Below, piece after piece: positions 31,539-44,862 of a stretch of DNA of 64,000 nt (position 1 is the stretch's first letter; the number at the start of each line of letters is the position of its first letter). The translations under genes were made by a program, and so were the position numbers. The notes beneath the pieces are model-generated. The model saw nothing but the letters and a program-made list of their open reading frames with translations, did no database searches and was not told the DNA's origin. Source of the DNA: Phycisphaerae bacterium (GTDB lineage Bacteria > Planctomycetota > Phycisphaerae > SM23-33); the NCBI GenBank assembly GCA_011050235.1, contig DRGC01000097.1, positions 1 to 64,000 on the forward strand, written 5' to 3'.

Positions 31539-31589
31539 TTCCCGACTACCTGAGCCCACAAGATGCCTGCTGAAGCTGGAGAGGAATAC

Positions 31590-32486
31590 ATGAGCAGAGA
31601 ACCGCTATTACCCAGAAAGACGGCGATCTCCTACAAGACCGAGGAGAAGACCGTTCTGCGGGGATACGACCTGAGCGAGTTGGCTGAGCAGGGGTATTCG
31701 TTCTGCGATGCACTGTTCGTTCTGTTCCAGGACCGCATCCCCACCGACAGCGAAGAGAAGATGCTCAAATACGAGATGGGCGCATTCATGGAGCACTCCA
31801 TGTCCCCCTCGGCGGTGGGCGCGATCGGCGTAATCACCGGACGGCCGAACCTGCCCTGCGCGGTGGCTGCATCGATCATGACCTTCGGCGGCGTGCACGG
31901 CCCGGGCGCAGCGCACGGGTACATGATGAACCAGTACATCGAGCGCGCCGAGGCCGAGGGCAAGAGCCTCGACGAGATGGCCAAGATCCTGGTCGACGAG
32001 CATCTCGACAACAAGGTGCCCGTGATGGGCATGGGCCAGCCCCAGCACACCGACAGCGACCCCCGGGCCGAACCCATCCACTGCAAGCAGGAAGAGCTCG
32101 AGATCGGCGGCGTGTACCTGGAGTTCCAGCGCGCGCTCGAGAAACACTTCCACGCTCGCCGCAAGGCCGAGGGCCGCTCCTATGTCGGCGTCAATGTCGT
32201 CGGCGCGGGCAATACGGCTCTGTGCGATATCGGTTTCTCCCCCAACGCAGCCTGGTGCTTGGGAAGCGTGTGTCGCGGGTTCAGTTGCGCCGCCCACGCA
32301 CTGTATTCCATGAAAAAAGGCCGAGCCTGGGGCGCCTCGCGGCGCGAACCGATGGTGCAGATGATCGACCTGAGCATGATCAAGTACGTCGGCCCCCCAG
32401 ATCGGCGCGTGCCCAAGCAGGACGAGCGGCAGGAGTATGCCAGGAAGCAGAAAGAGGAAGGTGAATACAAGCAATGGCTGATCTAG
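31590..32486 (+). CDS. Citrate-synthase-superfamily protein (citryl-CoA lyase-like) A
   Basis: The 298-residue product begins MSREPLLPRKTAISYKTEEKT, with the VLRGYDLSELAEQGYSFCDALFVL block typical of short citryl-CoA lyase/citrate synthase proteins. Histidine candidates lie in GGVHGPGAAHGYM and GQPQHTDSDPRAEP, and the third block is ALCDIGFSPNAAWCLGSVCRG. It lacks the large N-terminal extension of canonical citrate synthase. Possible reactions are cleavage or formation of citryl-CoA or a related acyl-oxaloacetate adduct. GGAGAGGA precedes the ATG at 31590. The next gene overlaps by 13 bases, so the pair may form a hetero-oligomer. Confidence 0.7.
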   Translation: MSREPLLPRKTAISYKTEEKTVLRGYDLSELAEQGYSFCDALFVLFQDRIPTDSEEKMLKYEMGAFMEHSMSPSAVGAIGVITGRPNLPCAVAASIMTFGGVHGPGAAHGYMMNQYIERAEAEGKSLDEMAKILVDEHLDNKVPVMGMGQPQHTDSDPRAEPIHCKQEELEIGGVYLEFQRALEKHFHARRKAEGRSYVGVNVVGAGNTALCDIGFSPNAAWCLGSVCRGFSCAAHALYSMKKGRAWGASRREPMVQMIDLSMIKYVGPPDRRVPKQDERQEYARKQKEEGEYKQWLI

Positions 32487-33523
32487 GCGACAAGAAGGGC
32501 ATCGGGAACCTCGACGACCCGAAGATGCCGTATGACTATAGCCAACGAGAGTACGGCACCGTGGAGACCGATGACGAGCGGGCCCGCTTTCAGTGGGTCT
32601 CGGAAGTGGCCTACAAGAACGTCCACCGCATCGTCGCCCGAGGCTACGATACGACCGAACTGGTGGAAGAAGGCTACGGCGTCGTCGATCTTCTCTTCGT
32701 GGACTTCCAGGCCCGCCTGCCCCTGATCGAAGAGGAGAAGATGTTGAACTACATCATGATCCTCTCGCTGGAGGACGGACTGTCCATCCCGGCCGTGATG
32801 TCGCGAATGGTGGCCAGGACCAAGACCTTCCTCACCCAGGCCTGCGGGGCGGCTGTGCTGTCGTTCGGGCACGCCTACGGGGCGTACTCGTCGTTCGGCA
32901 ACATGCTGGACGGCTATCTCTCCGAGGCCGACCAAGGCGCGGACCTCAAGGCGCTCGCCGAGGCCCTCGTCGCCGAGAACCTCGGCTGCGACCATCTGGG
33001 CGTGTCGGACCTGATGCTCAAGGACCCCGCCGCCAAGCGCATGGTCGCCCGGGCCGAGAAGCTCGGCGTCGCCGGCAAGCATATCGAGTTCATGACCCAC
33101 ATCGTCGCCGCGGCCAAGAAGGCCTCCGACAAGCCTGTCGACATCGACCTGCTCGGCGCGATCGGGGCGACGATGATGGATCTCGGCTTTACGCCCGAGG
33201 CCACCTGGGCCATCCTGGCCGTGACGCGGTCCTTCGGGGCCGGCGCCCATTACATCGAGGAAGTCGAGCGTGAAGAGTACACCCATCTGGGCGAGACGCT
33301 GACGCCCAAGGACACCTACGACGGCCCGGCCGACCGGCCCGTTCCTCCCATCGGCGAGCGGGACAAGCACGCCAGGCCCGCCCAGACCTTCACCACCACC
33401 GAGTGGAAGAAGGCCTTCGACCAGCGGAAGAAACTCCACGGCAGCGGCTTTGCCATCATTGAAGAAGTCGAAGACCCCAGCAAGATGACGGGCACCAAGA
33501 GCGTGGGCAAGAAACTGCACTAG
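32474..33523 (+). CDS. Citrate-synthase-superfamily protein B
   Basis: The 349-residue product is a second, clearly different member of the same superfamily: VHRIVARGYDTTELVEEGYGVVDLLFVDFQARLP, VLSFGHAYGAYSSFG, CDHLGVSDLMLKDPAAKRM and ATMMDLGFTPEATWAILAVTRSFGAGAHY. It has an additional N-terminal arm and a charged C-terminal tail ending KSVGKKLH. The overlap with gene A and the similar domain plan suggest cotranslation and perhaps one complex. Whether it is catalytic or a regulatory partner cannot be told, because its active-site histidines align only loosely. Confidence 0.65.
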   Translation: MADLGDKKGIGNLDDPKMPYDYSQREYGTVETDDERARFQWVSEVAYKNVHRIVARGYDTTELVEEGYGVVDLLFVDFQARLPLIEEEKMLNYIMILSLEDGLSIPAVMSRMVARTKTFLTQACGAAVLSFGHAYGAYSSFGNMLDGYLSEADQGADLKALAEALVAENLGCDHLGVSDLMLKDPAAKRMVARAEKLGVAGKHIEFMTHIVAAAKKASDKPVDIDLLGAIGATMMDLGFTPEATWAILAVTRSFGAGAHYIEEVEREEYTHLGETLTPKDTYDGPADRPVPPIGERDKHARPAQTFTTTEWKKAFDQRKKLHGSGFAIIEEVEDPSKMTGTKSVGKKLH

Positions 33524-33538
33524 CGCCCGTTGATAATC

Positions 33539-33566
33539 GGTTGGCGGGGCTCCTGTCCCGCCAACC
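33539..33566. repeat. Perfect 10-base hairpin within the operon
   Basis: GGTTGGCGGG at 33539-33548 and CCCGCCAACC at 33557-33566 surround loop GCTCCTGT. The left arm recurs as CGGTTGGCGGG near 36090, so it is probably a dispersed repeat. It lies between the second and third genes of the operon and could stabilise or attenuate the transcript. Confidence 0.6.
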
Positions 33567-33604
33567 TGACGACACCATCAATCGAGAGAACGCAGAGACA
33601 AGAC

Positions 33605-34993
33605 ATGGCAGACGACATCAGAGAAATGTACGTGCGAGCGCGGAAGGCCTTCGAAGAGGTCGAGTTCTGGTCGCAGGAGAAGGTCGACGAAATGGTCGCC
33701 GCCGTCGGCTGGGAGTGGCAAAAGCCCGAAACGGCCGTCGCCCTGGCCCGCCTGGCGGTGGACGAATCCGGCATCGGCAGGTACGAAGACAAGGTCCACA
33801 AGGTCCAAGCCAAGACGCGCGGCACGATGCGCGATCTGATCGGCCAGAAGACCTGCGGCCTGGTGCGGGAGGAGCCCGACAAGGGCCTGCGCATCTTCGC
33901 CAAGCCCATGGGCGTCATCGCCAACGTCGTCCCCTGCACCAACCCCGAGTCGACGGTCTGCTGCATCGGCCTGAGCACGCTCAAGACGCGAAACGCGATG
34001 ATTGTCTCCCCCCACCCCCGCACGCCGGGCAGCACGTCGCTGGCCGTCGATTACGGGCGAAAGGCGCTGGCCAAGGTCGGAGCGCCGGTCGACCTGATGC
34101 AGTGCATCCAGGAGCCCAGCCGCGAGATGACCCGGGACCTTATGGCCGGCTGTGATTTCGCCATCGCCACCGGCGGGGCCGCCCTGGTCCGCGTGGTCTA
34201 CGACGCCGGCAAGCCCTGCCACACCGTCGGCGCGGGCAACGTGATCTCGATCGTCGACGAAACCGCCGACTTCAAAGCCGTCGCCGCCAAGATCGTCAAG
34301 AGCAAGTGCGCCAACAACTCCGCGTCCTGCTCGAGCGAAAACGCCGTCGCCATCGAGGCCAGTGTATACGACGAGATGGTCGACGCCCTCCGGGCCGAGG
34401 GCGGCCATCTGTGCAGCGAGGCCGAGCGCGAGAAACTCCGCACCTACATGTGGCCGGACGGCAAGACGCTCAACCGCGACATCGTCGCCAAGCCCGTCGC
34501 CTATATCGCCGAGCATGCCGGGATCGACATCCCCGACAGCACACGGTTCCTGATGGTCGTCGGTACCGAGGCCGGCCCGAAGGACCGCTTCAGCGGTGAG
34601 AAGATCTCACTGACGCTGACGCTGTGGCAGTGGACCGACTTCAGCGAAATGGTCGAGCGGATGAAAGAGATGCAGCGGTTCAGCGGCGAGGGCCATTCCT
34701 CGTCGATCCACACCCAGCGCGACGAGCGCAAGGTGGAGCTCGCCCTCAAGGCCAACGTCGGCCGGGTCAACTGCAACATGCCCCACGCCGCCGCCAACAG
34801 CGGTAGCTGGTTCAACGGCCAGCCCACCACGGACTCGCTGGGCTGCGGCAGCTGGGCGGGCAACATGACGACCGACAACCTCAACTGGCGTCATTTCCTG
34901 AATTACACCTGGCTGTCAGACCCCATCCCCGAGCACATCCCCACAGATGACGAGTTATTCGGCGACTATCTGGCCAAGTATGGACGTGACTAG
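33605..34993 (+). CDS. CoA-acylating aldehyde dehydrogenase
   Basis: The 462-residue protein is an aldehyde-dehydrogenase-superfamily member of the acylating class: KPMGVIANVVPCTNPESTVCC, GGAALVRVVYDAGKPCHTVGAGNV and a catalytic Cys242 in NNSASCSSENAVAI. It would convert an aldehyde, CoA and NAD(P) to acyl-CoA. The closest types I can recall are sulfoacetaldehyde dehydrogenase (SauS) and EutE/AdhE-type acetaldehyde dehydrogenases; I cannot choose between them. No microcompartment-targeting peptide or shell genes are seen. ATG at 33605. Confidence 0.85.
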   Translation: MADDIREMYVRARKAFEEVEFWSQEKVDEMVAAVGWEWQKPETAVALARLAVDESGIGRYEDKVHKVQAKTRGTMRDLIGQKTCGLVREEPDKGLRIFAKPMGVIANVVPCTNPESTVCCIGLSTLKTRNAMIVSPHPRTPGSTSLAVDYGRKALAKVGAPVDLMQCIQEPSREMTRDLMAGCDFAIATGGAALVRVVYDAGKPCHTVGAGNVISIVDETADFKAVAAKIVKSKCANNSASCSSENAVAIEASVYDEMVDALRAEGGHLCSEAEREKLRTYMWPDGKTLNRDIVAKPVAYIAEHAGIDIPDSTRFLMVVGTEAGPKDRFSGEKISLTLTLWQWTDFSEMVERMKEMQRFSGEGHSSSIHTQRDERKVELALKANVGRVNCNMPHAAANSGSWFNGQPTTDSLGCGSWAGNMTTDNLNWRHFLNYTWLSDPIPEHIPTDDELFGDYLAKYGRD

Positions 34994-35024
34994 CGGCCCG
35001 CAACGCGGACCGCAGAGGTGACGA

Positions 35025-35735
35025 TTGGCGATTGAGGCCGTACTTCTCGACTACTGCCAGACCCTGGTCGATTCTTCCGACGGGTTCCGCGCCGCTGAGA
35101 AGCTCATTCAGGAAAAGATCTTTGAGGACCTTGCCCTGACGGACTGGGAGGAGTTCCTCGAGGATTACCGCCGGATCAGGAAGCAGGCTCACGAGAAACT
35201 CGTCCTGTCCAGAGAGGCCATCTGGCAGGAAGTTTATTGGTACTACTGTCGCGAGCCCCATCGGCAAGACCTGCAGCGATGGGAATCCGAGTACTGGCTG
35301 CAGGTTAGCACGACCACCGTCATCTTTCCCGAGACCTCGCGCGTGTTGGAGGCCCTTGCGGCCAAGTACAAGCTGGCGCTGATCACCAACGCCGACGCGC
35401 GAACCAGCTCGGCCAAAGAGCAGATCGATCATTACCCCCAATTGAAGGCGTTCTTCGACGTCATCGTTCTGGCCGGCAAGGACGACGTGCCGGCCAAGCC
35501 CGACCCGGCGGCCTTCATCCCGTGTCTGGAGGCGCTGGGCGTGCGGCCCGATCAGGCCGTCTACGTCGGCGATGACTGGCGGATCGATATCTGTGGAGCG
35601 CGCGGGGCCGGCATCCAGCCGATCTGGATCCAACATCACACCGTACCTCGGACCTTCCCCGACGTGGAAACCTCCACCCCCATCATCACCAGCCTCGACC
35701 CCCTGCTCGACCTGGACAGAGTTCTCGGGCGATAG
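35025..35735 (+). CDS. HAD-superfamily hydrolase with atypical first motif
   Basis: The 236-residue protein has a C1-type helical cap and motifs LLDYCQTLVDS (Asp9 nucleophile), LITNADA, KPDPAAF and VYVGDDWRIDICGARGAG. The residue two after the nucleophile, an Asp general acid in HAD phosphatases, is Cys11 here; phosphonoacetaldehyde hydrolase and haloacid dehalogenase also lack that Asp. A TTG start at 35025 follows AGAGGTG. It lies 31 bases behind the aldehyde dehydrogenase and is probably in the same operon. Phosphonatase-like chemistry is possible given the PhnW gene 5 kb away, but most HAD members of this shape are phosphatases. Confidence 0.7.
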   Translation: MAIEAVLLDYCQTLVDSSDGFRAAEKLIQEKIFEDLALTDWEEFLEDYRRIRKQAHEKLVLSREAIWQEVYWYYCREPHRQDLQRWESEYWLQVSTTTVIFPETSRVLEALAAKYKLALITNADARTSSAKEQIDHYPQLKAFFDVIVLAGKDDVPAKPDPAAFIPCLEALGVRPDQAVYVGDDWRIDICGARGAGIQPIWIQHHTVPRTFPDVETSTPIITSLDPLLDLDRVLGR

Positions 35736-36757: not shown

Positions 36758-38140
36758 CTATCTCTCCGCCGGTTTGAAGGGCACGCCTAGCTTGGCCAGG
36801 TCGCCCTTGATGGCCTCAACCACCTTCACGTGCTCGGCTGTGGGCTGGCCGGTCTTGATGTCGAAGCACTCGGGGTAGCTCTTGCCGCGGTCCGGGTCGG
36901 TGAGCTTGTTCTCGTAGATCGTCAGGAGTTTGGCGACCACCGGCGAGGCTTCCTTGCGCGTCATGCCTGTGGCGCCGAGGGCGATCTCCACACAGCCGCG
37001 CATTTCCATCGGCGTCAGGAAATCCGGGAATAGGGCCCCAGCCGGGTGAGTGGTCTGGCACGATACGCCCGAGGCGATCGCTGCGATCGTGGCGGCGGCG
37101 GCCTCGTAGTAGTAGCTTTCCGTCATCGGCCCGCCGGCTGCGTAGGGCAAGGCCAGCGTCGGCACGTTCGTGTTGCGAGAAATCGCCTGGTTCGAAACAC
37201 TCCACGCCCACAGCACGGGCCGGCTGGTCGAACAGCCCAGCCGCAGGTCCATCGGCAACGACAGGAAGTAGTCGCACTGGTAGACCACGACGCCGAGGAT
37301 GGCATACGCGGTGTTGATTATGGCCATCGCCTCCGGCCCGCCGGCAAAGCCCCCCATGAGCGGGGCGCTGGCCAGCACGCACCGCGTTGGGGAATCTTGA
37401 CACCAGACGACCTTGGTCATCATCTCGAAGTTCGTCTTGAACTCCGCCAGCGTGCCGACGATCACGCAGTCCGATTCCCGCCAGCCGGACGCCTGGCTCG
37501 AGGCCGCTATCGTCCCGCGGGCCGTCCCGGCAGCCGCGACGCCGTTGATGATCGCCAAGCCCTCTCGGCCGACGTCTTTGCACGCCTGCCGCGCGATGCG
37601 AATCGACCGGATCGCGCCGCGGACCTCCGCCGGCGTGTTGGCCATAATCAGGTGGCCGTCGACGTGGTCCAACGCCGGAACACTCATCGAATCGGCCGCC
37701 GCGATCGACGCGTTGCCGCGCACGATCTGCATGGCGATCTCTTCGGTCGACGCCACCGTGCCCGCTCCGACGTGGCACCACGGCCGCGTGTCGCTGTCCG
37801 GCTTGCGAGGGGTAAAGACCCGGGCCTCGGCGCCGTCGCCGAAGTGGCACTGACCGCTGTAGGCAGCTAGGTCGGCCCGGACCTCGTCGGGTGAAAACGT
37901 CACCACCCGCTGGGTATCCTTGAAGTACACGCCGCACCCGACGAAAAACTCCACCGCCGCGGCGAACACACAGTCGGCCAGGGCGTCGTCGGAGGGGACA
38001 GGATCGTCACCGTCGAAGTGCAGATCATACGTCTCGATCAACCCCACCAGCGTCGCGTAGACATAATCGATGTCGAAGTCCTGCTCGTCGAGCTTCGGCC
38101 CTTCGGTCGCCTGCTGACAAATATCAAGAATGTCGCGCAT
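36758..38140 (-). CDS. MtmB-like corrinoid methyltransferase without pyrrolysine (copy 1)
   Basis: The 460-residue product aligns along its full length with monomethylamine:corrinoid methyltransferase MtmB. Matching blocks are VPSDDALADCVFAAAVEFFVGCGVYFKDTQRVV, GREGLAI, GGFAGGPEAMAIINTAYAIL, TPMEMRGCVEIALGATGMTRKE and a C-terminal ECFDIKTGQPTAEH. In MtmB, as I recall its sequence, pyrrolysine 202 follows GRPGMGV; here the equivalent position is Ile198 after GREGLAI, and there is no in-frame TAG. It is therefore a Pyl-independent relative, whose methyl donor is unknown. It needs a corrinoid protein not seen in the window. The ATG at 38140 is 20 bases behind copy 2. Confidence 0.75.
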   Translation of the reverse strand: MRDILDICQQATEGPKLDEQDFDIDYVYATLVGLIETYDLHFDGDDPVPSDDALADCVFAAAVEFFVGCGVYFKDTQRVVTFSPDEVRADLAAYSGQCHFGDGAEARVFTPRKPDSDTRPWCHVGAGTVASTEEIAMQIVRGNASIAAADSMSVPALDHVDGHLIMANTPAEVRGAIRSIRIARQACKDVGREGLAIINGVAAAGTARGTIAASSQASGWRESDCVIVGTLAEFKTNFEMMTKVVWCQDSPTRCVLASAPLMGGFAGGPEAMAIINTAYAILGVVVYQCDYFLSLPMDLRLGCSTSRPVLWAWSVSNQAISRNTNVPTLALPYAAGGPMTESYYYEAAAATIAAIASGVSCQTTHPAGALFPDFLTPMEMRGCVEIALGATGMTRKEASPVVAKLLTIYENKLTDPDRGKSYPECFDIKTGQPTAEHVKVVEAIKGDLAKLGVPFKPAER

Positions 38141-38160
38141 CGCTATCTCTTCGTCATGTC

Positions 38161-39534
38161 CTACGACTTGTACGCAAAGCCCATGGCACGGAGTTCCTCT
38201 TTGACCTCGCCGTAGAGGTTCACGTACTCGGCCGACGGCTTGCCGGTGGCGATGTCGAAGCAGTCCTGATAGCGACAACCCACCGACGCGGTGTCGATGT
38301 TGTCTTCATACTTGGTCAGTAGCTCCAGCGCCAGATCGTTGCCCTGCGAGCGGCTCATGCCGGTGCAGGCCTCGATCAACTCGACGGCCCCGCGCATTTC
38401 CATCGGCGTCACATGGTCGGTCAGCACCGCCTTGGCCGGGTGGGTCGTCTGGGCCGACAGGCCCGAGGGGATCGCCGCGGCGATGTAGGCGGCCGACTCG
38501 TAGAAGAACTGCTTGGTCATCGGCCCAGCGGCGATGTAGCCCAGCGACCAGACGAGTTCCCTGGTGTTGCGGCTGATGGCCTGGCAACTGACGGCTGTGG
38601 GCCAGAGACAATCACGCGGCGTCGAGCAGCCCCGCGTCACGTGGACGGGGAAGACCAGGTGATAGTCGGCGTTGAGCACCAGCCGGCCGAGCAGAACGTA
38701 GGCGGTGTTGAGTACGGCGATCGCGGCCGGGCCGCCGCCGTAGCCGCCGACCAGCACGCCCGACTCGCCGCACACGTTGGCGCCCCAACTGTTTAAGTAG
38801 GTGGCCTTGTTGAGCGCGGCGAAGTTGTACTTCATCTCCGCCAGCGCGCCGACCAGCCAGCCGTCGGATTTCCGCAAGCCGAACTGTGGGACGCTGGCGG
38901 CGATGGTCGCCATCGACGTGCCGGCCGTCGAAATGCTGTTGCCGATCGCCAACCCCGGCCGGCCCGCTTCTCGCGACGCATTGCGGGAAATCTGCACGCC
39001 GCGGATGGCGGCCAGAATCTCCAGCGGCGTGCCGGACAGCACCGGCTCGCCGTCGACGGCGCCAATCGCCGGGCAACTAATCGAATTGGCCTGGCGAATT
39101 CCCGAGTAGGCCTTGACCAGGTTGAAGGCGATCTTCTCGTCGGAAACGAAAATGCCCGTGCCCACGTGGAACCACGGGGGCGTGTCGCTATCGGGCCGGC
39201 GCGGTGTCCACTCGTAGCGGTCCTTGCCTTCGCCCATCACGCATCGCCCGCGCGAGTCGCGCACCGCCGCCAGGACTTCATCGGCGGTGAACTGCGCGAC
39301 GGTGTGCGTGTCCGGGCACCAGAAGCCCGTCGCCTCAACGAACTCCACCGCCGCCTGGAAAACGCGATCGGCCAGATCGTCGTCGGACGGCACGGGCGTA
39401 TTGGGATCGTAGACGATGTTGTGTTTCTCACAAACCGTCCGCAGATTGGCGAAGACAACGTCGAGATCGAACGATTCCGCGTCCATCGTGGGGCCGGTCT
39501 TGATCCGACGACAGATTTCAACGATGTTGAGCAT
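38161..39534 (-). CDS. MtmB-like corrinoid methyltransferase without pyrrolysine (copy 2)
   Basis: This 457-residue protein is the second MtmB homologue and the middle gene of the operon. Key blocks are VPSDDDLADRVFQAAVEFVEATGFWCPDTHTV, GRPGLAIGNSISTAGTS (Gly198 in place of pyrrolysine), VGGYGGGPAAIAVLNTAYVLL, TPMEMRGAVELIEACTGMSRSQ and QDCFDIATGKPSAEYVNLY. The length (457 against 458 in MtmB) and the C-terminal pattern support a TIM-barrel methyltransferase acting with a corrinoid protein. GAGGAG lies six bases before the ATG at 39534. The gene ends with an ordinary TAG stop, as do other genes here. Confidence 0.75.
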   Translation of the reverse strand: MLNIVEICRRIKTGPTMDAESFDLDVVFANLRTVCEKHNIVYDPNTPVPSDDDLADRVFQAAVEFVEATGFWCPDTHTVAQFTADEVLAAVRDSRGRCVMGEGKDRYEWTPRRPDSDTPPWFHVGTGIFVSDEKIAFNLVKAYSGIRQANSISCPAIGAVDGEPVLSGTPLEILAAIRGVQISRNASREAGRPGLAIGNSISTAGTSMATIAASVPQFGLRKSDGWLVGALAEMKYNFAALNKATYLNSWGANVCGESGVLVGGYGGGPAAIAVLNTAYVLLGRLVLNADYHLVFPVHVTRGCSTPRDCLWPTAVSCQAISRNTRELVWSLGYIAAGPMTKQFFYESAAYIAAAIPSGLSAQTTHPAKAVLTDHVTPMEMRGAVELIEACTGMSRSQGNDLALELLTKYEDNIDTASVGCRYQDCFDIATGKPSAEYVNLYGEVKEELRAMGFAYKS

Positions 39535-39554
39535 GGGGCTCCTCGGGGGCTACG

Positions 39555-40703
39555 TTACTGGCTGGGGGTGGTCTTCAGTGTCGTGATGTTCATGTCGCAA
39601 ACGGTCTGCCGAATCGCACCGAGCAGGGCCCGGACGTCGGCGGCGAAAATATGGCCGATATTGCCAATGCGGAAACACGCCGCCTGTGTCAGCTTGCCCG
39701 GGTAGATCACATAGCCCCGGTCGCTCAGGCGGTGATAGAACTGCTCGAAGTCGAAAGCGGGATCATCGGGATAATGGAATGTCGTGATGATATGGCCCAT
39801 GTGCTCCGGCTTGAGATACGGCCGAAATCCCATGGCCGTCATGCCCTCGGTCAACACACGGAAGTTCTCCTCGTATCGCCGCGCCCGGGCGGCGACGCCG
39901 CCCTCGGCCTCCAGCTCCAGCAGGGCCTGGTGGAACGCCAGCAGCGAACTGGTCGGCGGGGTGAAACGGAACTGGCCGTTCGCCTCCAACCCCTCGTACT
40001 GGGCGAGCAGGTCCATCGTCAGCGACCGCGCCCACCCACCGGTCGCCTTGAGGCTGGCGAGCTTGGCCAGAATGAAGCTGAACCCCGGCAGGCCCTGGAT
40101 GCACTTGTTGGCTGAGGAGACCAGGTAGTCCACGCGGCAATCGGCCAGGTTGGTCCGGACCGCGCCGAAGCAGCTCATCGCGTCGACGAAGAACACCTTG
40201 CCGGCCTCGGCGACGACCTCGCCGATGGCTTGGAGTGGGTTCATGATGCCGGTCGTCGTCTCACAGTGCGTCACGCACACGTGCGTGATGGCTCCGTCGG
40301 CGGCGAGTGTGTCGGCGACGGCCGCCGGGTCGATGGGCTGATCTTCGGCGAACTCCAGCGCCTCGACGGCGATGCCCAGCATCCGGGTCATCGTGACCAC
40401 GCGCTGCCCGTACGCGCCGTTGACGGCCACCAGCAGCTTGCCATCGGGCGGAATCGTCGAGGCGACGACCGACTCGAGCCCGCACGTGCCGCTGCCCTGC
40501 ATGAGAATGCAGGTGTATTCATCCTCGCTCGCCTCGCCGACGGCCACCAGGCGGCGGCGAATGTCGCGGACGGTGGCGATGAACTCGGTATCGCGCGAGC
40601 CGACGTCGCGCAGCATGGCTTGCTTGACCGTGGGACTGGTCGTGATCGGCCCCGGAGTGAACAACCGTTTGTCCCGGCCGGGGACCTCTTCAAAACTCGT
40701 CAT
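39555..40703 (-). CDS. phnW: 2-Aminoethylphosphonate--pyruvate transaminase-type aminotransferase
   Basis: The 382-residue protein is a convincing PhnW match: [65 protein letters not shown], the PLP-lysine block [16 protein letters not shown], and [23 protein letters not shown]. It would transfer the amino group from 2-aminoethylphosphonate, or a similar 2-aminoalkyl compound, to pyruvate, yielding an aldehyde. GAGAGGATACG precedes the ATG at 40703. It is the first gene of a minus-strand operon with the two MtmB homologues (20-base gaps). Confidence 0.9.
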
Positions 40704-42985: not shown

Positions 42986-44071
42986 ATGGCCGGCCCGGTC
43001 ATTCTGGTGATCAACCCTGGCTCGACCTCCACACGGACGGCGCTCTACGCCGGCGAGGAGTTGCTGGCCGACCAGCACATCGTCTGCAGCGCCGAGGACC
43101 TGGCCGGCTGTGAACAGATCGCCGACCAGAAGGCGTTTCGCGCGCGAGAGGTGCAGGCGCTGCTGGACACACTCGGCCGGTCGATCGGCGACTGCGACGC
43201 GGTCGCCGCGCGCGGCGGGCCGCTCCAGCCTGTGCCCGGCGGCGTATACCGCATCAATGACTCCATGCTCGCCGACGCCGCCAGCGAGGCCTTCACTGAA
43301 CACGTCTCGAAACTGGCCTGCATCATCGCCGCCGAGCTAACAGCCGGGACCGACGTGCCGGGCTTTATCGTCGATCCGGTCTCGACGGACGAGTTCGACG
43401 AGCTGTCCCGCATCAGCGGGCTGAAGGAGCTGCCCCGAAAAAGTCTCCTGCATGCGCTGAACATCAAACGGGCCGCCCGCCGTTTCGCCGAGCAGGCTGG
43501 GCGCGGTGTCGATGAGCTAAACCTGATCGTCGCGCATCTCGGCGGGGGGATCTCGATCGCCGTCTCGCGCGGCGGACGGCTGATCGACGCCGTCGACGCC
43601 AATGGCGAGGGGCCGTTCTCCCCGGAGCGCAGCGGCGGGCTGCGAGTCGATGCGCTGGTGAAACTGGTCACCCAAGGCGATGCGGATTTCGCCGCCATTC
43701 GTAAGCGTCTGACGCGCGAGGGTGGGCTGATGAGCCATCTGGGCACGACCGACGCCCGCGACGTTGAGCGGCGAGCGGGCGACGGCGACGAGCGGGCGAA
43801 GCTGATTTACGAGGCGATGGCTTACGGCATCGCCAAGCACATTGCCGCCCTCGCCGCCGCCGTCGCCGGGCAGGTCGACGCTGTGGTCTTGACCGGCGGG
43901 CTGGCCCGTTCAACAATGCTGACCGACTGGATCGGCCAGCGGGTGGGGTTCCTCGCGCCGGTGCATCTCGAGCCCGGCGAGAATGAAATGGACGCCTTAC
44001 GAGAAGGGGCCGCCCGCGCACTGGCCGGCCAGGAAGCGATTAGGATCTACCCAACAGGACAATGTGAATGA
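42986..44071 (+). CDS. buk: Butyrate kinase-type acyl kinase
   Basis: The 361-residue protein carries the acetokinase-family start ILVINPGSTSTRTALY, the VAARGGPLQPVPGGVYRIN block, HLGGGISIAV, GPFSPERSGGLRVDAL and VLTGGLARSTMLTDWI. Butyrate kinases convert acyl phosphate and ADP to ATP and a carboxylate; branched-chain acyl phosphates are also used by this family. GGCAGGAGA precedes the ATG. It overlaps ptb by 4 bases (ATGA). Confidence 0.93.
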   Translation: MAGPVILVINPGSTSTRTALYAGEELLADQHIVCSAEDLAGCEQIADQKAFRAREVQALLDTLGRSIGDCDAVAARGGPLQPVPGGVYRINDSMLADAASEAFTEHVSKLACIIAAELTAGTDVPGFIVDPVSTDEFDELSRISGLKELPRKSLLHALNIKRAARRFAEQAGRGVDELNLIVAHLGGGISIAVSRGGRLIDAVDANGEGPFSPERSGGLRVDALVKLVTQGDADFAAIRKRLTREGGLMSHLGTTDARDVERRAGDGDERAKLIYEAMAYGIAKHIAALAAAVAGQVDAVVLTGGLARSTMLTDWIGQRVGFLAPVHLEPGENEMDALREGAARALAGQEAIRIYPTGQCE

Positions 44072-44862
44072 ACTCGTTTACAGACGTTCTCACCGAAGCC
44101 CAGCGCATCGGGCCCAAGAAGATCGCCATCGCCGGGCCGCCCAACGAGGAGCTGACCGAGGCGCTCGGCCTGGCCGGCGAGATGGGCATCTGCGAGCCGG
44201 TGATCTTTGACGATGCTCTTTCGGCCGTTGCCGCCACTCGCAGCGGCGAAACCGATGTGTTGATGAAGAGCAGCGTCTCGACCAAGGACTTCATGAAGGC
44301 TGTGCTCGACAAGGACCACGGCCTGCGGAAGGGCAGGTTGATCAGCCATGTGTTTATCTTCGAGGCGTTCGGCCGGCTGCTGATGGTGACCGACGGCGGC
44401 ATCTGCATTCGGCCGACACTGGAGGAAAAGGCCGAGATCATCAAGAACATCATCCCCATCGCGCATCGGCTCGGCATCGAAACGCCCAAGGTCGCCGTGC
44501 TGACGGCCATCGAGAAGGTCAACCCCAAGATGCCCGAGACCGTCGATGCGGCCAAGCTGGCGGAGATGACTATCCCCGGCTGTCTGGTGCAGGGGCCGCT
44601 GGCCGTGGACAACGCCGTCTCGCCCGAGGCGGCTGAGACCAAGGGCATCCCCGGGCCGGTGGCCGGCCATGCCGATGTCCTGCTGGTTTCCTCGGTGGAG
44701 GTGGGCAACATCTTCGCCAAGGGCATCGTCTACTTCTCGAGTTGCCCTGTCGGCGGCGTGGTGGGCGGCACGTCGCGGTCGGTGACGCTTCTGTCGCGAT
44801 CCGACACGACTGCCACAAAGCTTAACACGCTGGCGCTGGGCGTGCTGATGAGCGAGCCGTAG
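44068..44862 (+). CDS. ptb: Phosphate butyryltransferase
   Basis: The 264-residue protein belongs to the phosphate acetyl/butyryltransferase family: KIAIAGPPNEELTEALGLA, HVFIFEAFGRLLMVTDGGICIRPTLEEKAEIIKN, VAVLTAIEKVNPKMPET, QGPLAVDNAVSPEAAETKGI and VGGVVGGTSRSVTLLSRSDT. It interconverts acyl-CoA and acyl phosphate, and with butyrate kinase completes substrate-level phosphorylation from acyl-CoA. It ends the operon. Confidence 0.93.
   Translation: MNSFTDVLTEAQRIGPKKIAIAGPPNEELTEALGLAGEMGICEPVIFDDALSAVAATRSGETDVLMKSSVSTKDFMKAVLDKDHGLRKGRLISHVFIFEAFGRLLMVTDGGICIRPTLEEKAEIIKNIIPIAHRLGIETPKVAVLTAIEKVNPKMPETVDAAKLAEMTIPGCLVQGPLAVDNAVSPEAAETKGIPGPVAGHADVLLVSSVEVGNIFAKGIVYFSSCPVGGVVGGTSRSVTLLSRSDTTATKLNTLALGVLMSEP

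Follow-up and report, generated by a model that had tools for sequence, protein, structure and literature searches.

A pyrrolysine-free MtmB pair in planctomycete phnW clusters: a candidate oxygen-independent route into N-methylated aminophosphonates

The window analysed here, a 64,000-nucleotide stretch of contig DRGC01000097.1 from a Phycisphaerae bacterium (genome G000, 4.01 Mb), carries an operon that joins phosphonate catabolism to a pair of methyltransferases of the MtmB family. On the minus strand, phnW (39555-40703), encoding 2-aminoethylphosphonate (AEP):pyruvate transaminase, is followed after gaps of 20 nt each by mtmBa (38161-39534) and its paralogue mtmBb (36758-38140). PhnW exceeds the cut-offs of TIGR02326 (459.2 bits against 400.8) and NF010006 (475.8 against 296), retains the SSANKCIQG stretch and has the PhnW structure 1m32 as its best PDB match. 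MtmBa (457 aa) and MtmBb (460 aa) are 45% identical to each other, match the PF05369 profile over positions 2-449 of 450 (266.7 and 262.6 bits, respectively; cut-off 25 bits) and are encoded by the only MtmB genes in the genome. A previous sequence-only reading had described a tight minus-strand operon of phnW and two MtmB homologues of near-archaeal length at 36758-40703; the coordinates, strands, gaps and lengths proved exact, and PhnW identity and MtmB family membership were confirmed by profile. Its link between phnW and mtmB thus stands, but the extent was drawn too narrowly, as a further module (31563-35735) belonging to the same conserved cluster had been missed.

Both methyltransferases are free of pyrrolysine (Pyl), the residue found at position 202 of archaeal MtmB. 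As had been read earlier, the equivalent codon 198 is GGC (Gly) in mtmBa and ATC (Ile) in mtmBb, and neither gene contains an inner TAG. Since TAG ends more genes than any other stop codon at the loci of this genome that were read (39/74 genes), both mtmB genes among those ending in it, it is unlikely that the host uses Pyl or generally reads TAG as such. An Rfam search of the window returned zero matches.

Structure models were obtained for MtmBa (mean predicted local distance difference test score, pLDDT, of 76; modelled on five sequences) and for MtmBb (mean pLDDT only 64). The former superimposes on MtmB from Methanosarcina barkeri (PDB ID: 1nth) over 450 residues with a Z-score of 47.5 and a root-mean-square deviation of 2.2; the latter, a lower-confidence model, does so with a Z-score of 36.3. 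Structures of the MttB family lag far behind (Z of about 21 and 15), and we rejected membership in the MttB superfamily because the score of only about 21 came with 10% identity and no Pfam family beyond MtmB was matched. We take the Pyl pocket of MtmB to be lined by Glu205, Glu229, Glu259, Gln333 and Tyr335. In the alignment, both window proteins have other residues where MtmB has Glu205, Glu229 and Gln333, Tyr335 is conserved in 17/17 full-length sequences, and MtmBa shares Glu259 with a related group of MtmBs (clade c, see below). This pattern fits an enzyme that would no longer form a Pyl adduct.

Converging with the phnW operon is a plus-strand module of four genes, CS1-CS2-SauS-HAD (31563-35735). 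CS1 (31563-32486; PF00285, 57.2 bits) has the citrate-synthase/citryl-CoA-lyase fold and is overlapped by 13 nt by CS2 (32474-33523; PF00285, 31.8 bits), a second protein of the citrate-synthase fold. They are followed by a SauS-like CoA-acylating aldehyde dehydrogenase (33605-34993), for which the acylating sulfoacetaldehyde dehydrogenase family NF047625 is the best match, albeit below its cut-off (491.4 bits against 600); sulfoacetaldehyde corresponds to phosphonoacetaldehyde with a sulfonate group in place of the phosphonate. The last gene (35025-35735; PF00702/PF13419) encodes a haloacid dehalogenase-type (HAD) hydrolase that is a conserved partner in the module and is not PhnX. This set of four recurs with phnW in a further five genomes (G582, G583, G650, G519 and G581, the last with a contig break intervening), with identities to the window proteins of 84-86% for CS1, 71-74% for CS2, 71-76% for the SauS-like protein and 50-54% for HAD; the stretches read of G519 and G581 contain no MtmB. 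A second CS1-CS2 pair in G650 (contig C152, locus L091:8956-10967) has no SauS, HAD or phnW nearby, indicating that the pair can stand alone.

Taking the catalytic triad of citrate synthase to be His-His-Asp, alignment with 6hxp shows that CS1 keeps only the first His, the other two positions being Gln and Val/Ile, while CS2 keeps 0/3. The usual second Asp of HAD motif I is Cys in the window and Gly in G650, and is present in the other four proteins; a K/R-x-x-H stretch aligns with the region of the catalytic Lys of PhnX, possibly by chance. PhnX itself was not found in the host genome, where the best TIGR01422 score is 45.7 bits (cut-off 220) and no match reaches E <= 1e-20. It exceeds the cut-off only in G392 and G596, both of which lack the module, and in 0/4 of the module-bearing genomes G000, G582, G583 and G650. 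PhnA is likewise above cut-off in 0/8 genomes searched, including 0/6 of those with the module (host best TIGR02335 score, 44.8 bits against 407.55). Because the module-bearing genomes searched have neither PhnX nor PhnA above cut-off, it probably performs the work of PhnX or bypasses it, and may represent an unrecognised way of processing phosphonoacetaldehyde.

The association of MtmB with phosphonate genes recurs in other planctomycetes. A scan of 84,980 species genomes yielded two loci, one of them L016 (G392, a Planctomycetota metagenome-assembled genome, MAG), and a search of the order to which the L016 genome belongs revealed the subfamily, other MtmBs or fragments in 9/161 genomes. In the AEP clusters thus collected, MtmBa orthologues are 64-71% and MtmBb orthologues 55-58% identical to the window proteins. 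The fullest arrangement, in G582, places phnW-pbfA-mtmBa-mtmBb-CS1-CS2-SauS-HAD on one strand; that of G650 reads phnW-adh-PhnX-like-pbfA-mtmBa-mtmBb-CS1-CS2-SauS, and genes for HAD and an aldehyde dehydrogenase are found next to it. At L016, the genes for MtmBa (70% identical) and MtmBb (58%) immediately precede phnX (PhnX, 328.8 bits against a cut-off of 220) and a gene for an aldehyde dehydrogenase, and in G532 mtmBa lies directly after pbfA. PbfA of the clusters scores 700 and 715 bits (cut-off 525). Remnants were also found: in G583, 78 aa of mtmBa separate pbfA from CS1, and in G596 the interval from pbfA to phnX holds a short and weak match to MtmB (28 bits, E 2.3e-6). The phnW gene of G392 (62% identical) is situated at the end of another contig (L030); joining it to mtmBa was rejected, as the contig ends share no sequence overlap. 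Inverted copies of an approximately 20-nt repeat (AAGTAGCGTTGTAGTAyTA), located after phnW in L030 and before mtmBa in L016, probably caused the assembly break. In G617 (L053:1-3239) the contig begins inside mtmBa, which overlaps by 4 nt a gene for a D-2-hydroxyacid dehydrogenase, itself followed by an AraC-type regulator; the D-2-hydroxyacid dehydrogenase family is the presumed origin of PbfF, the racemase of hydroxy-AEP (HAEP) that is known to partner PbfA (PMC12366243).

In a small MtmB tree, poorly resolved within clade a, MtmBa and MtmBb define clades a and b. Clade c (L048, L050, L051 and L052) is about 40% identical to MtmBa, and a third Pyl-free clade (L085-L087) is found in other gene contexts; none of these seven loci has phnW, pbfA or phnX near its MtmB gene. 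A phosphonate-catabolism gene shares the contig with MtmB in 5/6 loci of clades a/b and in 0/7 of the other clades (Fisher p = 0.005, to be read as a guide only, because the loci are related, come mostly from one planctomycete order and are not fully independent). The gene context in relatives is therefore a conserved phosphonate one rather than an unrelated one, and we consider a role of MtmBa/b in aminophosphonate catabolism to be very probable on this genomic evidence. The genes are nevertheless sporadic: MtmBa/b occur in 0/149 other close genomes, and any MtmB in 5/392 genomes sampled across the phylum, which led us to reject plain vertical inheritance within the family of the host. Spread on plasmids was rejected as well (a tblastn search of PLSDB gave no match), as was recent acquisition of foreign DNA, since the GC content of the genes, overall and at third codon positions, matches the window.

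The direction of the pathway deserves consideration, since PhnW also exceeds the cut-off of TIGR03301 (445 bits against 360.8), a model that also covers AepZ. The cluster could accordingly make methylated aminophosphonates as phosphonolipid or glycan head groups, with PhnW running as AepZ. This appears very improbable, as PbfA and PhnX are catabolic, importers of the organophosphate-type major facilitator superfamily and an aldehyde dehydrogenase adjoin the cluster genes, and no phosphonate-biosynthesis genes were seen in the clusters, although no whole-genome search for PepM was made. AEP and choline both occur as head groups of lipids, and the MtmBs might instead act on choline, phosphocholine-like compounds or other quaternary amines, their AEP-related neighbours reflecting a shared lipid or glycan source. 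MtqB, the only characterised Pyl-free MtmB, does take tetramethylammonium and choline (PMC13044021). The linkage, however, is to phnW, pbfA and phnX, no choline genes were seen in the clusters, and it is within phosphonate operons that the MtmB remnants of G583 and G596 occur. Moreover, PhnW requires a free primary amine, so that a demethylase would supply a step that the pathway otherwise lacks (PMC10590968). On balance, choline-like substrates seem to us unlikely.

Demethylation by an MtmB-type enzyme would call for a corrinoid acceptor, and corrinoid machinery is encoded in the host genome. Contig C49, distinct from that of the operon, encodes a candidate partner, a 221-aa MtxC-like protein with B12-binding_2 and B12-binding domains (TIGR02370, 190.6 bits, below the cut-off of 215.3). 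There are two RACo-type activases (PF14574, 309.6 and 242 bits); the one compared with NCBIfam is nearer to RACo/AcsV than to RamA, the activase that the sequence-only reading had named. An operon for CODH, ACS, both CFeSP subunits and the methyl-tetrahydrofolate (methyl-H4F):CFeSP methyltransferase is also present. Given the activases, the corrinoid protein and this operon, the host can plausibly make use of methyl-corrinoid. Corrinoid proteins were also detected with TIGR02370 in G582, G650 and G617.

Several observations weigh against a corrinoid-dependent demethylase acting on aminophosphonates. No corrinoid gene lies inside the clusters of the window, G582, G650 or G392, and TIGR02370 has zero matches in the MtmBa-bearing drafts G392 and G532, the completeness of which is undisclosed. 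Clade c operons carry their own corrinoid and methyl-H4F methyltransferase genes, whereas those of clades a/b do not; with the order corrinoid protein-MtmB-methyl-H4F-type methyltransferase, the former look like complete bacterial MtmB systems. The Glu259 position is Ala in every MtmBb, no residue of MtmBa or MtmBb can be tied to phosphonate binding, and the clusters derive mostly from a single planctomycete order. The absence of corrinoid genes from the clusters and of corrinoid-protein matches from G392 and G532, and the loss of the Glu259 equivalent in MtmBb, together with the loss of Glu205, Glu229 and Gln333 equivalents in both proteins, would suit an MtmB fold reused for a corrinoid-free reaction, such as binding or modification of aminophosphonates. 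The fold is that of MtmB over its full length, however, Tyr335 is invariant and Glu259 persists in clades a and c, corrinoid proteins occur in G000, G582, G650 and G617, and clade c relatives adjoin corrinoid genes; we therefore regard reuse of this kind as quite improbable. Corrinoid-dependent, O2-independent N-demethylation of methylated aminophosphonates, feeding PhnW, is the reading we favour, with moderate confidence.

According to this proposal, the operon and CS1-CS2-SauS-HAD would form one O2-free pathway for N-methylated AEP. The TIM-barrel proteins MtmBa and MtmBb would transfer the N-methyl group of methylated AEP or HAEP to a corrinoid protein in its reduced state, from which it would pass to methyl-H4F and the Wood-Ljungdahl pathway. 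The acceptor is probably the MtxC-like protein of contig C49, with a RACo-type activase maintaining its activity. Candidate substrates are N-methyl, dimethyl and trimethyl AEP or methylated HAEP, and the two paralogues might remove successive methyl groups. Demethylation is placed before PhnW because N-methyl-AEP is not usable by PhnW (PMC10590968); the freed primary amine would then be converted to phosphonoacetaldehyde, to be handled in the host by SauS, HAD, CS1 and CS2 in place of PhnX. An order of demethylation and then transamination had been suggested before; its aminophosphonate link is now supported by the clusters with phnW, pbfA and phnX. The gene identities, the family, the fold, the conserved linkage and the existence of corrinoid machinery are established, while the exact substrate, the corrinoid dependence, the sequence of steps and the whole chemistry of SauS, HAD and the CS pair are what we infer.

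For the subsequent step two schemes may be envisaged, between which we do not choose: either HAD is an unrelated phosphonatase working ahead of an acetaldehyde dehydrogenase, or phosphonoacetyl-CoA is formed and its C-P bond then cleaved. Passage of the C-P route through an acyl-CoA is a tentative idea; in the literature searched, phosphonoacetyl-CoA was found with phosphonates only in a preprint about flavophos, a phosphonate natural product with antimicrobial activity. Slightly more doubtful still is the complete anaerobic route, in which the MtmBs demethylate, PhnW transaminates, the SauS-like enzyme yields phosphonoacetyl-CoA, and acetyl-CoA and phosphate are then released through C-P bond cleavage by HAD acting with CS1/CS2, the pair that lacks the triad. 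If true, it would be a C-P hydrolysis other than those by PhnX, PhnA, PalA, C-P lyase and oxygenases.

Two further loci may be mentioned. Elsewhere in the window (42986-44862, plus strand), a butyrate kinase gene lies beside one for a short phosphotransbutyrylase-like protein (264 aa). The Pseudomonadota MAG locus L017:1-4918 encodes a PhnU2/PhnT2-like ATP-binding cassette transporter, an MtxC corrinoid protein, a class III aminotransferase and a partial MtmB that shares 50% identity with each of the two window proteins; it was not counted as phosphonate-linked, as the transporter scores below cut-off.

A search combining aminoethylphosphonate, corrinoid and methyltransferase uncovered no publication that places MtmB in the breakdown of phosphonates, and the AEP-degradation literature examined does not mention a methyltransferase. 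On that ground we judge the MtmB-aminophosphonate link to be new, as a variant on two known kinds of system. It would assign one clade of the Pyl-free MtmBs, most of which have no assigned function (PMC13044021), a defined pathway and class of substrates and, if true, would constitute the first O2-independent use of N-methylated AEP known to us. N-methylated AEPs are reported to be frequent in nature (PMC10590968), and the processing of phosphonoacetaldehyde to which CS1-CS2-SauS-HAD points would bear on how phosphorus is recycled in anoxic environments.

Comparison with archaeal MtmB reveals a match over the whole family profile, the same TIM barrel over 450 residues, a length within 2 residues and the shared Tyr335; the window proteins differ in lacking Pyl, in having Gly or Ile at 202 and in the replaced Glu205, Glu229 and Gln333 equivalents, and their kind is linked to phnW, pbfA and phnX rather than to mtmC and pyl genes. 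MtqB, described in March 2026 as the first of the Pyl-free MtmBs to be given a function, among 1,061 Pyl and Pyl-free MtmBs collected, of which the remaining Pyl-free ones are of unknown function, belongs to the same family and is likewise expected to work without a Pyl adduct (PMC13044021). It is, however, the product of a methanogen gene adjoining the corrinoid gene mtqC, unlike the bacterial pairs in phosphonate operons. The sequence-only reading, which knew of no characterised Pyl-free MtmB linked to phnW, must thus be amended, in that a characterised Pyl-free member now exists, but holds insofar as MtqB has no phnW link. With the hydrolytic PhnWX and PhnWYA pathways that include PbfA (PMC8154272, PMC10574752) the clusters share phnW, pbfA and, in G392 and G596, phnX; they depart from them in the added MtmB pair and, in the module-bearing genomes searched, in having neither PhnX nor PhnA above cut-off. 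The FAD enzymes PbfB, PbfC and PbfD are similarly ancillary members of phnW clusters that let N-methylated AEP in, yet they oxidise it aerobically and release methylamine, whereas methyl transfer by an MtmB would have AEP as the remaining product; they do not accept trimethyl-AEP, for which the one route described so far depends on oxygenases (PMC10590968). That route, the TmpA/TmpB pathway (PMC10574752), also acts on methylated AEP, but does so with iron-dependent oxygenases and O2, giving trimethylglycine as product (PMC10590968).

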